Positions 49,588-54,439 of a DNA stretch of 64,000 nucleotides are shown here, piece after piece. Numbering within the stretch: position 1 is the first letter of the stretch; each line of letters opens with the position of its first letter. A program made the position numbers and the translations under genes. The stretch is taken from positions 2,480,001-2,544,000 of the forward strand of contig NZ_CP037993.1 in the NCBI RefSeq assembly GCF_004367745.1, written 5' to 3'. Source of the stretch: Herbaspirillum huttiense (GTDB taxonomy: Bacteria; Pseudomonadota; Gammaproteobacteria; Burkholderiales; Burkholderiaceae_D). A model generated the notes under the pieces. The model made no database searches and was not told where the DNA came from. It saw only the letters and a program-made list of their open reading frames with translations.

Positions 49588-51012
49588 TCAGATCTCGGCA
49601 GTGTCTCCGCGTGCCGGCTCATCGGCCATGAAGGGCAGGGTGATGTCCACCCGCAAGCCACCGTCGCTGCGATTGGCGGCGCGGATGAAGCCTTGGTGCG
49701 CTTCCACGATGCGCCGTGCAATCGAGAGCCCCAGTCCGTGGCCGGCGCTGTTGCTCTTGGTGCGGCTGCTGCGGAAGAACAGCTCGAAGATGCTGTCCAT
49801 TTCTTCTTCCGGCACACCCGGTCCGCGATCCAGGATGGACAGGTGCAGCAGCTTGTTGACCTCGTCGATCTCGGCCACGAATTGCACGGCCGTCTCGGGT
49901 GCCGTGTGCTTGATGGCATTGCGCAGCACGTTCTCGATGGCGCGATAAAGCAATTCCGGATTGCCCTTGACCTGCACCCGGCAATCGATGCGGCTTTCCA
50001 CCCGCTTGCCCAGTGCCTCGGCCTCGAAGCTGGCGTCACTGGTCATGTCGGCCAGCATGGCCTGGATGGCGATGGCTTCTTCCATCGAACCGGGCACGTT
50101 GGCTTCCAGCCGCGACAGGGTCAGCAATTCGCCGACCAGCTTGTCCATGCGCACGCTTTCGCGTTCGATGCGTTCCAGAGTCAGTTCCAGCTTGTCCTTG
50201 TCCTGCACGCGTGCCAGGCCGATGGCCATCTGCAGGCGCGCAATCGGCGAGCGCAGCTCGTGCGAGACATCGTGCAGCAGGCGGCGCTGGCTTTCCATCA
50301 GGGTACGCAACTTGGCCGTCATGGCGTCGAAGTCGCGTCCCAGGTCGGCCAGTTCATCGTTGCGCGCGCTCATGACCGGTTCCAGCGCCTGGTCCAGATT
50401 GCCGTTGGCGGCCTGGTTGAAGGCATTCTTGAGGTGCCGGATCGGATGCGAGAAATACCAGGCCAGCAGCAACGCAAACACCAGACTGGCCACCAGCGCC
50501 ACGGCAATCGGCATGGTCGGGAAGAACAGTGGCTTGGGTCCGCCCCTGTCCTTCATGTAACGCGGCTCGCGGCCCGGCATGCCGCCCGGGGGCGGGCCGA
50601 ACTCGTCGTTGGGCGTGGGAATGAACATCAGGTAGCTGTGGCCGTTGGCGGCCTTGACCAGTTCCACCACCCGGCGATCGCGTTCGGTGGCCAGCACGCG
50701 GCGCGCCTGTTCCACCAGATGCGGCGAGACTTCGCGGCCCATCAGGTCCTGGTTGTCTTCATCCACGGCATACAGCTGCAGGCGATGCGGGCGCCCCTCG
50801 TTGATCAGGCTGCGCAAGGCTTCCGGGCCGCCGAACTGCAGGGTGGCGGCGGCCGCGCGGATCATGAAGGAGGCCGGTGGACTGAGGTCGATCTCCGAAT
50901 TGCGGTTGCTGCGTTCCAGGTTCTCGATCCAGAACAGCACGCCCACGCCGAAGGTGGCGGTGATCTGGGCGATCGCAATGAAGAAGAAGAACTTCCAGAA
51001 AAGCCGGCCCAC
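49588..51012 (-). CDS. Sensor histidine kinase, CpxA-like
   Basis: The membrane sensor partner of the adjacent response regulator. It is 474 residues from the GTG at 51012, one base after the regulator's stop and preceded by AAGGA inside the regulator gene. TM1 is at about 6-28; a periplasmic domain at about 30-165 contains a Gly/Pro-rich loop (EFGPPPGGMPGREP); TM2 is at about 166-187. HAMP follows, then the H-box LLHDVSHELRSP with phospho-acceptor His251, the N-box ENVLRNAIKHT, and G boxes DRGPGVPEEE and GHGLGLSIARRIV. The CpxA assignment rests on overall resemblance plus two CpxR-type boxes upstream of the operon. Confidence 0.88.
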   Translation of the reverse strand: MGRLFWKFFFFIAIAQITATFGVGVLFWIENLERSNRNSEIDLSPPASFMIRAAAATLQFGGPEALRSLINEGRPHRLQLYAVDEDNQDLMGREVSPHLVEQARRVLATERDRRVVELVKAANGHSYLMFIPTPNDEFGPPPGGMPGREPRYMKDRGGPKPLFFPTMPIAVALVASLVFALLLAWYFSHPIRHLKNAFNQAANGNLDQALEPVMSARNDELADLGRDFDAMTAKLRTLMESQRRLLHDVSHELRSPIARLQMAIGLARVQDKDKLELTLERIERESVRMDKLVGELLTLSRLEANVPGSMEEAIAIQAMLADMTSDASFEAEALGKRVESRIDCRVQVKGNPELLYRAIENVLRNAIKHTAPETAVQFVAEIDEVNKLLHLSILDRGPGVPEEEMDSIFELFFRSSRTKSNSAGHGLGLSIARRIVEAHQGFIRAANRSDGGLRVDITLPFMADEPARGDTAEI

Positions 51013-51013
51013 T

Positions 51014-51703
51014 TTATTCCTTGATGAACTGGTAGCCCAGGCGGTAGACGGTCTGGATGCAGCTCTTGTCGCTGCCCAGTGCGGCGATCTTCTGGCGGAT
51101 GCTGGAGAGGTGGACGTCGATGTTGCGGTCGAAGCGCGCCAGCGGACGGCCCAGGCCTTGCTCCGACAGGGTCTGCTTGCTGACCGGCTTGCCGGCATTG
51201 CGGGCCAGCACTTCAAGCAGGTTGAATTCGCTGCTGGTCAGTTCCAGCGGACGGCCGTTCCAGGTGGCACGGCGCTGTTCCGGCCACATCGACAGGGCCC
51301 CCACGGCCAGCGGCGAATAGGGCGCCTGCTCGCTGCTCTCGGCCGAGGCGCGACGCAGGATGGCACGGATGCGGGCAGCGATCTCGCGCGGCGTGCAGGG
51401 CTTGGGGACGTAGTCGTCGGCACCGAGTTCCAGACCGATGATGCGGTCGGTGTCATCGCCCTTGGCGGTCAGCATCACGACCGGCATGTTGCTCTTGGCG
51501 CGAATGCGGCGCAGGGTGTCGACGCCGTTCAGGCGCGGCATCATCACGTCCAGCACGGCGATGGCGTACTGGCCGGTGAGCGCCTCGGCAGCACCGGCTT
51601 CACCGTCATGGGCGACGTTGACTTCAAATTTTTCCTGCTCAAGGTATTCCTTGAGCATCTCGACGAGCTCCACGTCATCGTCGATCAAAAGCACTTTAGA
51701 CAT
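51014..51703 (-). CDS. OmpR-family response regulator, CpxR-like
   Basis: A DNA-binding regulator of 229 residues. The receiver domain has the acidic pocket IDDD, phospho-acceptor Asp52 in LDVMMP, Thr79 and Lys101. The C-terminal winged helix (about 130-228) has LTSSEFNLLEVLARNAGKPVSK and the terminal TVYRLGYQFI. It is followed by the sensor kinase with a one-base gap. Its promoter region holds an exact GTAAA-N5-GTAAA box plus a third GTAAA, consistent with autoregulation as known for E. coli cpxRA. Confidence 0.9.
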   Translation of the reverse strand: MSKVLLIDDDVELVEMLKEYLEQEKFEVNVAHDGEAGAAEALTGQYAIAVLDVMMPRLNGVDTLRRIRAKSNMPVVMLTAKGDDTDRIIGLELGADDYVPKPCTPREIAARIRAILRRASAESSEQAPYSPLAVGALSMWPEQRRATWNGRPLELTSSEFNLLEVLARNAGKPVSKQTLSEQGLGRPLARFDRNIDVHLSSIRQKIAALGSDKSCIQTVYRLGYQFIKE

Positions 51704-51802
51704 TGCTGCATTCCATTCTCGAATTGCCCTGCCTTCAGGCCGCAGGGCGTCGGCAGCCCGTAATATGCCGTAAAAGGTTTTGCAGAAGTGTTTCAGGCCT
51801 TC

Positions 51803-51831
51803 TTTACAATTGCATCTTTACATTCATTTAC
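51803..51831 (-). promoter_or_regulatory. CpxR-type box with extra half-site, regulator-proximal
   Basis: On the reverse strand: GTAAA-TGAAT-GTAAA (51831-51817), then nine bases and a third GTAAA (51807-51803). The tandem pair equals the published CpxR consensus GTAAA-N5-GTAAA exactly. It lies about 100-130 bases upstream of the regulator start, on the strand of that gene. Confidence 0.65.
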
Positions 51832-51961
51832 CGCGGCCGGCCGCTGCCTGCCAAAGTACGAGAACTCGCATTTTTCTTGCTTTCCATTCATCAGTGCCTG
51901 ACGGCAACCCGCACCGGGCCTGGCTGGGGCGCGGAGGGCGGACGAGCTCGCTTAACAAGAC

Positions 51962-51976
51962 TTTACTCGGCTTTAC
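51962..51976 (+). promoter_or_regulatory. Second CpxR-type box, proximal to the Ser/Thr-rich gene
   Basis: TTTAC-TCGGC-TTTAC, the exact complement of GTAAA-N5-GTAAA, about 100 bases before the rightward ATG and roughly 60-75 bases upstream of its likely transcription start. Confidence 0.6.
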
Positions 51977-52074: not shown

Positions 52075-52812
52075 ATGGCCATCAGCAGCGTGTCGTCCAG
52101 CAATTTCAGTCTTGCCGATCTGTCGGCGTTGTCCGGAACCAGCGGTTTTTCTACCAGCGCCACGCCGCGCATGGATGCGCCGCCACCGCCGCCGCCGCGT
52201 GGTGACAAGGGCGGGGGCCTCATCGGGGCGCTCAAGGATATCCTGTCCGCGCTGGGCGTCGATCTCGACAGCTCGGCCACCAGCGCCACTTCGGTCACGT
52301 CGGCGACCACCACTTCCTCCAGCAGCAGCATCTCGTCGGCCAACGTCGATTCCAAGCTCGATGCCTTCCTGCAGGAATTGATGGCGGCTCTGAAGGGTCA
52401 GAACAATCCGCCGCCGGGACCGCCCGCGGCCGGCTCCACGTCTTCCTCGGACAGCAGCACCAGCAGCGTATCGGCCACCAGCGATACCAGCAGCACGAGC
52501 AGCAGCACCAGTTCGACCAGTACCGACACCACCGCACGCGCCTACACGCCGGGCGGCCGTCCGCCGCCACCGGGAGGAGGGCTGGAGGCTGATCTCCAGA
52601 GCCTCATTTCCAGCCTCTCCGGCAGCAGCAGCGGCACTGATGCAGGCTCAGGAGACGGCACCGTTTCCTCGCTGGAAAGTGCATTCAGCAACCTCCTCAG
52701 TTCCTTGGGCGCGTCGTCATCCACGACCTCGCTCTCGAGCTTCCTGCAAAGCCTGCAGAGCAAGCTGGCCGCAGGAAAGACCACCGGCAACCTGATCGAC
52801 ACCACCGCGTGA
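52075..52812 (+). CDS. Low-complexity Ser/Thr/Pro protein with five leucine-helix repeats, CpxR-box controlled
   Basis: 245 residues; no family recognised. There is no N-terminal signal peptide or membrane helix. Long Ser/Thr linkers (for example 64-93 and 121-153) and proline runs (36-41, 112-117, 163-166) separate five 13-residue segments at 49-61, 95-107, 170-182, 200-212 and 220-232. These share Leu/Phe at positions 1, 5, 8 and 12 (for example LEADLQSLISSLS). It occupies the position that cpxP has in enterobacteria (divergent from cpxRA, box upstream) but has none of CpxP's LTxxQ motifs or export signal. AAAAGGAG precedes the ATG. Its role is unknown. Confidence 0.85.
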   Translation: MAISSVSSSNFSLADLSALSGTSGFSTSATPRMDAPPPPPPRGDKGGGLIGALKDILSALGVDLDSSATSATSVTSATTTSSSSSISSANVDSKLDAFLQELMAALKGQNNPPPGPPAAGSTSSSDSSTSSVSATSDTSSTSSSTSSTSTDTTARAYTPGGRPPPPGGGLEADLQSLISSLSGSSSGTDAGSGDGTVSSLESAFSNLLSSLGASSSTTSLSSFLQSLQSKLAAGKTTGNLIDTTA

Positions 52813-52858: not shown

Positions 52859-54439
52859 ATGAATGCTCCCGACCCCGCCACCCTGGCTGGCATCATGGGC
52901 CTGATGTGCGAGGCCATCGCCCTGCGCGGTGCAGGCCAGCCTGCCGCCGCCCTGGCCGCTCTCGATCAGGCCCTGCGACTCGATGCCGGCTTCCTGCCCG
53001 TGCTCATGCAGCGTGCCAGCCTGTTGCAGGAAACCGGCGATCTTCCTGCTGCGGCCGCTGCCTACCAAGCCTGCCTCGATCTGCTGCCCGATTACGACGA
53101 AGCCCGTGTGGCGCATCGTGCCGTCTTGCTGCAATGGGTCGATGCGCTCCAAGCGCGGCTGCTGCAGGAGGGCGCAAGGCCTGTCGATCAGCGGGTGTTG
53201 CTGGCGCGCTTGTACCACCAGCTGGACCGACCCCATGCGGCCTTGTCCGCCATCGAACCTGCCCTCCCGCTACCCGCGCTGGAGGACCAGGCCCTGCATG
53301 CCGATATCCTGCTGCGGCTGAATCGCCATGAAGAAGCCTTGCGCTGCTATCCCGACGACGCGGCCGAGGATGAGGCGCGCGCCCTGATCGCCTTCAATCG
53401 GGCCGACATCCTGCGTCGCATGGGCCGGATCGAGGCGGCTCAAGCCGGATATGAAGAAGCCTTACGCTGGCATGCCGACTTTCCGCAAGCCCAGGTGGGG
53501 CGTGCGCATATGTTGCTCACGCGCGGGGACTTCGCCGAAGGTTGGCGCGAACATGAAGCGCGCTTCCGGATTCCGGAATTGGCCCGGCGCGCCATCACCA
53601 CGCCCAGTCCGTGCTGGCAGCACGGCGAGTCGCTCAGTGGCAAACACATCCTGCTGTGGTCTGAACAAGGGCAGGGCGATTGTCTGCAATTTGCTCGCTA
53701 TCTCCCGCTGGTGGCAGCGCAGGCGGCACAGGTCACCCTGTGTGCCCCGGCGGGCTTGCTGGCAGTGCTCGCGCCGTCCTTTGCGCAGGTTCGCTGCGTG
53801 GCGCATGTCAGTGAAGTTGGTCCGCATGATTGTCAGGCTTCCTTGCTCAGTCTTCCGTATTTGCTGGATCTGCCGCATCCGAGCCAGGCTCCGTCTGCGC
53901 CCTACCTGAAGGTGGATCCGATCCGCCTTCAGCAATGGCAGCAGCGTCTCGCCGAGACAGCGGCGACTTCACCGCGCCGTCCGCGCATCGGCCTGGCCTG
54001 GGCCGGTCGCCAGTACGCCACGCCGCACCCCAGCCGCGATGTGCCGCTGGCGGAGTGGCTGCCCTTGTTTGAACTGCCTGTGCAGGTGGTCAGCCTGCAA
54101 GTCGAGATCCCGCTGGCCGATCAGCACATGCATCAGGAGCTGTCTGGCCGGCTCCGCACCTTCCCGCTGGCGGACTGGGCCGATTCGGCAGCGCTGGCCT
54201 GCGCGCTGGACCTGGTCATCAGCGTCGATACCGCCGTGGTGCACCTGGCCGGCGCGTTAGGCTTGCCGTGCTTCCTGCCGCAGCGGCTGGAAGGCGAGTG
54301 GCGCTGGGGTGTGCAGGGCGAGCAGACTGCCTGGTATCCCTCGGTGAGGCTGTTCCGCCAGCAGCAGCGGGGGCAGTGGGACAGTGTGGTCGAAGAGATC
54401 GTGGCCGCTTGCCGAGAACGCTTTGCCGCGTGGAGCTGA
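52859..54439 (+). CDS. TPR-repeat protein with C-terminal GT9/GT-B-like glycosyltransferase domain
   Basis: 526 residues, cytoplasmic. The N-terminal ~230 residues are tetratricopeptide repeats (GQPAAALAALDQALRLDAGF; GDLPAAAAAYQACLDLLPDY; GRIEAAQAGYEEALRWHADF), with a linker DFAEGWREHEARF. The C-terminal half resembles the heptosyltransferase (GT9) fold, with RIGLAWAGR and the nucleotide-sugar motif DLVISVDTAVVHLAGALGLP. Similar TPR-GT proteins occur near protein- or flagellin-glycosylation genes, but no such partners are here. The acceptor is unknown. Translation may be limited by the hairpin touching the ATG. Confidence 0.82.
   Translation: MNAPDPATLAGIMGLMCEAIALRGAGQPAAALAALDQALRLDAGFLPVLMQRASLLQETGDLPAAAAAYQACLDLLPDYDEARVAHRAVLLQWVDALQARLLQEGARPVDQRVLLARLYHQLDRPHAALSAIEPALPLPALEDQALHADILLRLNRHEEALRCYPDDAAEDEARALIAFNRADILRRMGRIEAAQAGYEEALRWHADFPQAQVGRAHMLLTRGDFAEGWREHEARFRIPELARRAITTPSPCWQHGESLSGKHILLWSEQGQGDCLQFARYLPLVAAQAAQVTLCAPAGLLAVLAPSFAQVRCVAHVSEVGPHDCQASLLSLPYLLDLPHPSQAPSAPYLKVDPIRLQQWQQRLAETAATSPRRPRIGLAWAGRQYATPHPSRDVPLAEWLPLFELPVQVVSLQVEIPLADQHMHQELSGRLRTFPLADWADSAALACALDLVISVDTAVVHLAGALGLPCFLPQRLEGEWRWGVQGEQTAWYPSVRLFRQQQRGQWDSVVEEIVAACRERFAAWS

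Follow-up and report, generated by a model that had tools for sequence, protein, structure and literature searches.

The window, that is, the whole 64-kb stretch of DNA analysed here, comes from the 5.69-Mb genome of Herbaspirillum huttiense (G000, C1, positions 2480001-2544000) and carries a gene for a protein of 245 amino acids, transcribed divergently from a gene pair resembling cpxRA. Knowledge of the Cpx response stems mostly from enterobacteria, in which the marker gene divergent from cpxRA is cpxP, and we refer to the Herbaspirillum gene in the corresponding place as the slot gene. The genes of the locus and its predicted CpxR-type boxes are the following.

49588 to 51012, minus strand: cpxA-like sensor histidine kinase gene (HAMP, HisKA and HATPase domains)
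51014 to 51703, minus strand: cpxR-like response regulator gene (receiver and winged-helix domains)
51760 to 51774, plus strand: CpxR-type box with one mismatch, adjoining cpxR
51817 to 51831, minus strand: second perfect CpxR-type box, closer to cpxR
51952 to 51966: CpxR-type box with one mismatch, overlapping the perfect box at 51962 to 51976
51962 to 51976, minus strand: perfect CpxR-type box (GTAAA-N5-GTAAA), 113 bp upstream of the slot gene
52075 to 52812, plus strand: slot gene, encoding a 245-residue member of an undescribed five-helix, Ser/Thr-rich family (FAM)
52859 to 54439, plus strand: gene of a TPR protein with a sub-cut-off match to Pfam glycosyltransferase-9, 46 bp 3' of the slot gene

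The best NCBIfam matches of the regulator and the kinase are the CpxR and CpxA models, both below their equivalog cut-offs; against the CpxR equivalog NF008199, the best of the 25 models listed, the regulator scores 221.5 bits where the cut-off is 341. A cpxR regulator is present in 33 of the 34 genomes of the genus. The slot gene has a plausible ribosome-binding site (AAAGGAG), no sigma-70-like promoter was found between 51700 and 52870, and a search of Rfam between 49000 and 55500 gave no match.

CpxR-type boxes and conservation of the slot gene

The consensus given in PMC5063474 for the CpxR proteins of E. coli and Pseudomonas is GTAAA-N4-8-GTAAA, independent of orientation; our scans covered only the N5 spacing within the N4-8 of the Cpx consensus. 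Four boxes with at most one mismatch occur in the window, all of them in the intergenic region between the slot gene and cpxR (shuffle mean 0.31), and two of the 12 perfect boxes of the genome lie in the same region, the reversed-pattern control giving 9. Of the 19 Herbaspirillum orthologues, 18 are preceded by a perfect box no more than 300 bp away (shuffle expectation 0.03), at a distance of 106-162 bp from the gene in 16 of the 18, while L014 and L015 have only the cpxR-proximal box. The preliminary description had credited the gene with a CpxR box of its own, and the perfect box at 51962-51976 agrees with this. Elsewhere in the window's genome, a perfect CpxR-type box stands before a lon-like gene, between this and a clpX-like gene (L189); here and below, gene names such as flgK, flgL, fliR, flhB, cheV, aer, clpX, lon and smpB were assigned by inspection of translations.

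Orthologues of the slot gene were found in 19 of the 34 Herbaspirillum genomes searched. In nine pairwise comparisons, dN/dS ranges from 0.04 to 0.20 in the core of the protein (helices, termini and poly-Pro) and from 0.12 to 0.75 in the linkers. Judged by these comparisons, the open reading frame is a real gene under purifying selection, and the poorly conserved, neutral frame that the preliminary description had contemplated is not what is found. The gene is absent from 14 of the 33 genus genomes that have cpxR; the remaining genome of the 34, G022 (63% complete), lacks both the slot gene and any match to cpxR. Presence of the gene changes at least seven times on a tree built from the cpxRA DNA of the 33 genomes; it is an accessory gene with frequent losses or gains, and by the same comparisons a dispensable one. 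The locus was fetched from 14 of the 15 gene-less genomes (the 15th being G022); the intergenic region there measures 317-745 bp and the next gene is either the TPR gene, which is thus retained in 10 of the 14, or smpB (4 loci). By clade, the gene-less genomes keep a perfect distal box in 0 of 4, 4 of 7 and 0 of 3 cases, the second figure becoming 5 of 7 with the inclusion of an overlapping pair that G002 has about 310 bp from cpxR. L051, L052, L055 and L057, all without the slot gene, retain the perfect distal box ahead of the TPR gene.

The slot gene and the TPR gene may share a transcript, and smpB follows the TPR gene on the opposite strand. Among the cpxR-adjacent loci compared, the TPR gene stands beside a family gene only in Herbaspirillum. 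Its product, with its resemblance to glycosyltransferase-9, might glycosylate the Ser/Thr linkers of the slot protein.

A family of Ser/Thr-rich helical proteins

The slot protein is 55% Ser, Thr, Gly and Pro, contains no Cys and has a pI of 4.2. Its distinguishable parts are listed here.

52075 to 52137, plus strand: conserved N-terminus MAISSVSSSNFSLADLSALSG, without a Sec signal by inspection (alignments, N-terminal rules)
52219 to 52257, plus strand: helix 1 (residues 49-61), after PPPPPPRGDKGGG
52357 to 52395, plus strand: helix 2 (residues 95-107)
52582 to 52620, plus strand: helix 3 (residues 170-182), after PPPPGGG
52672 to 52710, plus strand: helix 4 (residues 200-212), resembling helix 1
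52732 to 52770, plus strand: helix 5 (residues 220-232), resembling helix 2
52783 to 52809, plus strand: conserved C-terminus TGNLIDTTA (alignments)

Inspection found no signal peptide in the slot protein, MAISSVSSSNFSLADLSALSG having neither a charged n-region nor a hydrophobic core. No Pfam or NCBIfam family matches it above cut-off, in keeping with the preliminary description, which knew of no family for it, and a search of solved structures by sequence returned a single match, a phage tail lysin at E 0.21, which we take as chance.

Searched at E 0.01 with a profile built from the 19 Herbaspirillum members, the taxonomic family of the window has hits in 74 of 294 genomes. A second profile, built from 31 diverse members, gives 51 positives among 399 genomes at the level of the order and 7 among 369 at class level, the window's own included and two of them weak (L163, L164). 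The gene, undescribed in the libraries searched, is not restricted to Herbaspirillum and belongs to a protein family spread over Burkholderiales. Members start with MSIS- and a Ser-rich stretch, continue with a run rich in Pro, Asp/Gly or His, contain helices of the types GGGF..AI..AL..IG, AL.AFLQ.LM..L, LE.DLQSLI..L, LQ.SF..LL..LG and L..FLQ.L...L, and end like SGNLVNTTA. In a set of 76 members of 150-330 residues, the only lengths admitted, Cys is absent from 73, the median pI is 4.4, Ser or Thr occupies position -2 in 70, and DxDxDG, which the slot protein lacks, occurs in 24 (shuffles 0.4). Depending on the member, the same linker positions are rich in Pro, His (HHH in 16 of the 76) or Asp/Gly, as also in Herbaspirillum L012 and L013, and linker chemistry appears exchangeable between members. 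In the NCBIfam and Pfam tables for the 31 members, which list matches without cut-offs, no family stands out; the best Pfam match is Pex19, seen in nine members with a best E of 4e-5. A tblastn search of the plasmid collection with L103 found no match, and a literature search, mostly of titles and the openings of abstracts, found no description of the family or of a gene following cpxP.

The five helices of the preliminary description, with Leu at positions 1, 5, 8 and 12, are present: Leu fills 18 of the 20 places, the exceptions being Ile at position 8 of helix 1 and Phe at position 5 of helix 4, and helices 1 and 3 do follow a Pro-Gly run. The strict, non-overlapping pattern L...L..L...L has four sites, starting at residues 53, 95, 170 and 220 (shuffle mean 0.02). 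Beyond the Leu anchors, helix 1 resembles helix 4 (p 0.007) and helix 2 resembles helix 5 (p 0.008), with weak matches between helices 3 and 4 (p 0.027) and between 2 and 3 (p 0.042) and none in the other six pairs; these p values, obtained by permutation of nine positions inside the aligned columns of the family, carry no correction for the ten pairs. Five equal 13-residue repeats were accordingly rejected in favour of a two-fold pattern (helices 1-2 and 4-5) plus helix 3. An alignment of the two halves by hhalign gave 40% probability, over helices 2 and 5 only, where six shuffles gave at most 0.7%.

For the slot protein, AlphaFold2 places helices at residues 13-20, 49-59, 88-110, 171-183, 194-211 and 220-234, with a mean pLDDT of 53 and a pTM of 0.38. 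A homologue of 174 residues with short linkers, L105, is predicted at pLDDT 65 and pTM 0.54 with five helices, whose ten-residue pLDDT means are 61-86. Because this short-linker protein is predicted as one bundle, one folded unit is favoured over beads on a flexible string, the image used in the preliminary description. The linkers do vary freely; the helices are unequal. With moderate confidence, and on the strength of these models, the family protein is more likely to be a single five-helix bundle with long disordered Ser/Thr inserts as linkers. Foldseek found no match at E 0.001 for either the slot protein or the L105 model, and fold comparison by VIA gave uninformative best Z values of 3.4 and 4.4 for the two.

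Association with cpxP-like genes

Sixteen cpxR-adjacent loci come from genera other than Herbaspirillum. A perfect CpxR-type box lies within 950 bp at every one of them, and in 14 a CpxP-like open reading frame stands between cpxR and the family gene. These CpxP-like frames carry motifs of the L(T/S)xxQ type and, as judged by inspection, encode a signal peptide; they end between 11 bp inside the family gene and 56 bp before it (L083 from one comparison only). Ten were scanned, from eight of the 14 loci plus L118 and L177: nine pass the cut-off of PF13801 (heavy-metal resistance), seven that of PF07813 (LTXXQ) and all at least one of the two, with PF13801 the better model for at least eight. 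The order of a cpxP-like gene followed by a family gene is also seen in L118, L124 and L177, the last in another family of the order, and in L167, from a third family, the order is cpxP-like gene, cpxRA, family gene. As far as gene order can tell, the family gene is probably the second gene of a cpxP-type operon in the majority of these 16 loci.

In the wider order this arrangement involves part of the family. Of 47 order-sample loci outside Herbaspirillum, 7, in three families, have a regulator with 55% or more identity to the CpxR of the window (the 47 omit G064, G557 and G598 of the 49 non-Herbaspirillum positives and include G491 twice). Members in other families mostly lie away from cpxR, and the majority lack a box in the nearest 300-350 bp. 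A scan of 42 members for which no cpxR had been recognised alongside gave four with a perfect box (L072, L133, L142 and L146) where 0.06 were expected; of these, L133 (the same as L166) adjoins a regulator of 49% identity, and L146 (the same as L177) lies in a locus with a cpxP-like gene and a family gene. In a separate scan of 31 loci, nine of which were already in the scan of 42 members, two had a box. At a distance from cpxR, boxes are less frequent than beside it, yet they exceed chance.

The slot gene is divergent from the cpxRA-like pair and stands behind a CpxR-type box, as its assignment to the cpxP position implied, and it has this placement in common with genes of the CpxP/Spy/LTXXQ proteins (PF07813, PF13801). 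The earlier statement that its product is unrelated to CpxP also holds, since the protein has no match to PF07813 or PF13801 at E up to 1 and no LT dipeptide; unlike CpxP, Spy and the LTXXQ proteins, it has neither a signal peptide nor an LTxxQ motif. In relatives, the two kinds of gene sit side by side. No CpxP-type reading frame was found in the Herbaspirillum slot. Because the cpxP-like gene is missing there and its partner gene is still present, the slot has not been filled by something foreign, and the cpxP-like gene may have been lost from it, have moved elsewhere or never have been present there. Loss of CpxP-type genes from the whole genus is ruled out for LTXXQ, the model with which the genus was searched, as 33 of the 34 genomes hold an LTXXQ gene elsewhere. 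At the three such loci fetched, from G000, G002 and G016 (recorded as L217, L218 and L219), no CpxR box with at most one mismatch was found in 8 kb; in L218 the LTXXQ gene adjoins another two-component pair and an efflux-adaptor-like gene.

Export and competing readings

The N-termini of the family resemble those of type III substrates. In a set of 93 members (lengths 150-330, with sequences carrying any of five odd prefixes left out), 82 combine an aliphatic residue (Ile, Leu or Val) or Pro at positions 3-4 with an initial 12 residues free of Asp and Glu. Of 41 crude open reading frames of the window, 7 show this combination; with the further rule of at least 16% Ser in the first 50 residues, the counts are 73 of 93 and 1 of 41. 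Start codons were chosen partly by richness in Ser, Thr, Asn and Gly, which favours the N-terminal rules, odd starts were omitted and the members are related, so that the pattern is suggestive only. For the type III substrates of P. syringae, PMC3338616 gives the same N-terminal patterns, there with Ser over 10%, and describes them as not absolutely required, real substrates being able to lack them.

The gene for FHIPEP (FlhA/SctV) is present in 49 of the 51 family-positive and 230 of the 348 family-negative genomes of the order (Fisher 2e-6, which ignores phylogeny); the two family-positive genomes where it was not found are G492 and G579. FHIPEP is also present in the 14 Herbaspirillum genomes that have cpxR and lack the slot gene. 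A single FHIPEP match is seen in 11 of the 19 slot-positive Herbaspirillum genomes, G000 included. With one FHIPEP gene only, of flagellar-like score, no injectisome is in sight in the window's genome, and a type III injectisome was rejected as the exporter in this strain; the assignment of the gene to the flagellum rests on that score. In three loci from other families of the order, the family gene lies among flagellar or chemotaxis genes: in the order flgK-flgL-family gene (L171), in the order cheV-aer-family gene (L172), and near flhB with an FHIPEP gene next on the same contig (L168). Sigma-28 promoters with up to four mismatches were found in none of the 19 Herbaspirillum and 16 cpxR-adjacent loci, and upstream of 42 other members there were three against 1.7 expected, which is no enrichment.

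Campylobacter exports non-flagellar proteins by its flagellar apparatus, and the family proteins, if exported as proposed, would share this route. Given the N-terminal pattern, the co-occurrence with FHIPEP and the members at flagellar loci, flagellar export is our leading guess and not a finding; we regard it as tentative, with chances below even, and hold export by one route or another to be slightly better than an even bet.

If the protein stays inside, it would be a cytoplasmic member of the Cpx regulon whose bundle binds a partner, for example the regulator, a protease or the membrane, with linkers that are merely disordered. The lack of a Sec signal on inspection agrees with this, as does the failure to recognise a dedicated exporter gene in 40 neighbourhoods (crude gene calls), and the link with flagella is not corrected for phylogeny. 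However, conserved termini flanking variable linkers, the near absence of Cys and the DxDxDG motifs look more like an exported protein, and in relatives the gene shares an apparent operon with that of a CpxP-like protein; a purely cytoplasmic role is rather unlikely.

A second possibility concerns ancestry, namely descent from the Ser-rich EF-hand proteins near XopAW, with calcium ligands lost or moved to the linkers. The two groups share a plan: no signal peptide, a Ser-rich N-terminus, poly-Pro before an amphipathic helix. The slot protein matches the NCBIfam XopAW model (NF041410) with 19.3 bits against a cut-off of 120 (E 8e-4), as do 4 of the 31 members weakly, all far below the cut-off, and none of four shuffles, the reversed protein giving a different, spurious match. 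A comparison of the two profiles gives 82% probability, and one reading frame, L240 of G598, is matched by both, with a family-profile match (E 8e-5) that extends beyond the stop of the frame. Against descent, the reversed profile still reaches 24%, the alignment is confined to the PPPPPP-GGG-helix piece (a run without realignment covers more columns at equal score), and two members match XopAW in different registers. Moreover, EF-hands are found in the XopAW-like L240 and L241, whereas no EF-hand family is among the Pfam matches listed for the 31 members, and the C-termini differ. Membership of XopAW was rejected on the scores, registers and short alignment, a distant relation being kept as possible; descent of this kind we consider improbable. 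In the order at large, the XopAW model matches proteins (L220-L243, L245) in 107 of 330 genomes at E 1e-5, mostly with scores well under its cut-off and three over it; the eight inspected are Ser-rich and EF-hand-like with Pro-rich runs, and the name "effector" may not fit them. Harpins are acidic, Cys-free and Gly/Ser-rich proteins with amphipathic helices and without a Sec signal. The family shares these traits, Cys being absent from nearly all members; unlike harpins, it is linked to Cpx and no injectisome is seen in the window's genome, and no harpin family is among the Pfam matches listed for the 31 members at E 0.1.

The conserved C-terminus, SGN-hydrophobic-hydrophobic-(N/S/D)-T-x-A/V, could itself be the signal for a type I or other non-Sec exporter in place of the flagellum. 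Its conservation beside variable linkers, the Ser or Thr at -2, and an acidic, nearly Cys-free protein with some DxDxDG motifs would suit such a route. The 40 neighbourhoods nevertheless contain no recognised exporter or adaptor gene, only importer-like ABC genes in L181, and no known secretion-signal family is among the matches of the 31 members, so this export route appears decidedly improbable. Finally, that the slot protein has replaced CpxP and damps CpxA, as its position behind a CpxR box in a slot without a CpxP-type frame might suggest, is very improbable, because in relatives both genes share one apparent operon and the protein is thus not an alternative to CpxP, and because it lacks a signal peptide that would take it to the periplasmic side and an LTXXQ gene exists elsewhere in nearly all the genomes of the genus.

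The reading that we prefer, an undescribed family under CpxR control with export as the favoured step, is reasonably probable as a whole, and its regulatory and operon part is very probable. Envelope stress would activate CpxA, and phosphorylated CpxR, to judge from sites and linkage, would bind the predicted box at 51962-51976 and switch the slot gene on. As the Herbaspirillum slot lacks the first operon gene, the slot gene there stands directly behind the CpxR box. Its product, without a Sec signal, would leave the cytoplasm by another way, most likely through the type III export apparatus of the flagellum. Outside the cell it would act as a small bundle of helices whose inserts are disordered and in some members resemble metal-binding sequences.

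The regulatory and genomic account, resting on sequence, is strong by comparative standards and is absent from the literature searched. It points to a second, undescribed family tied to the cpxP-type operon in Oxalobacteraceae and some other families of Burkholderiales, of which Herbaspirillum keeps the family gene without a cpxP-like gene in the slot, and whose protein looks exported. A bolder version would be a stress-triggered secretion unit, in which CpxRA drives both a periplasmic CpxP-like guard and an extracellular helical protein released through the flagellar channel; in this full form it is unlikely. If true, envelope damage or surface contact would be answered outside the cell, and neither the family nor this use of the flagellum appears in the Cpx-response literature searched. 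The family offers a concrete target for Cpx action beyond the periplasm, and one to annotate where no model matches today.
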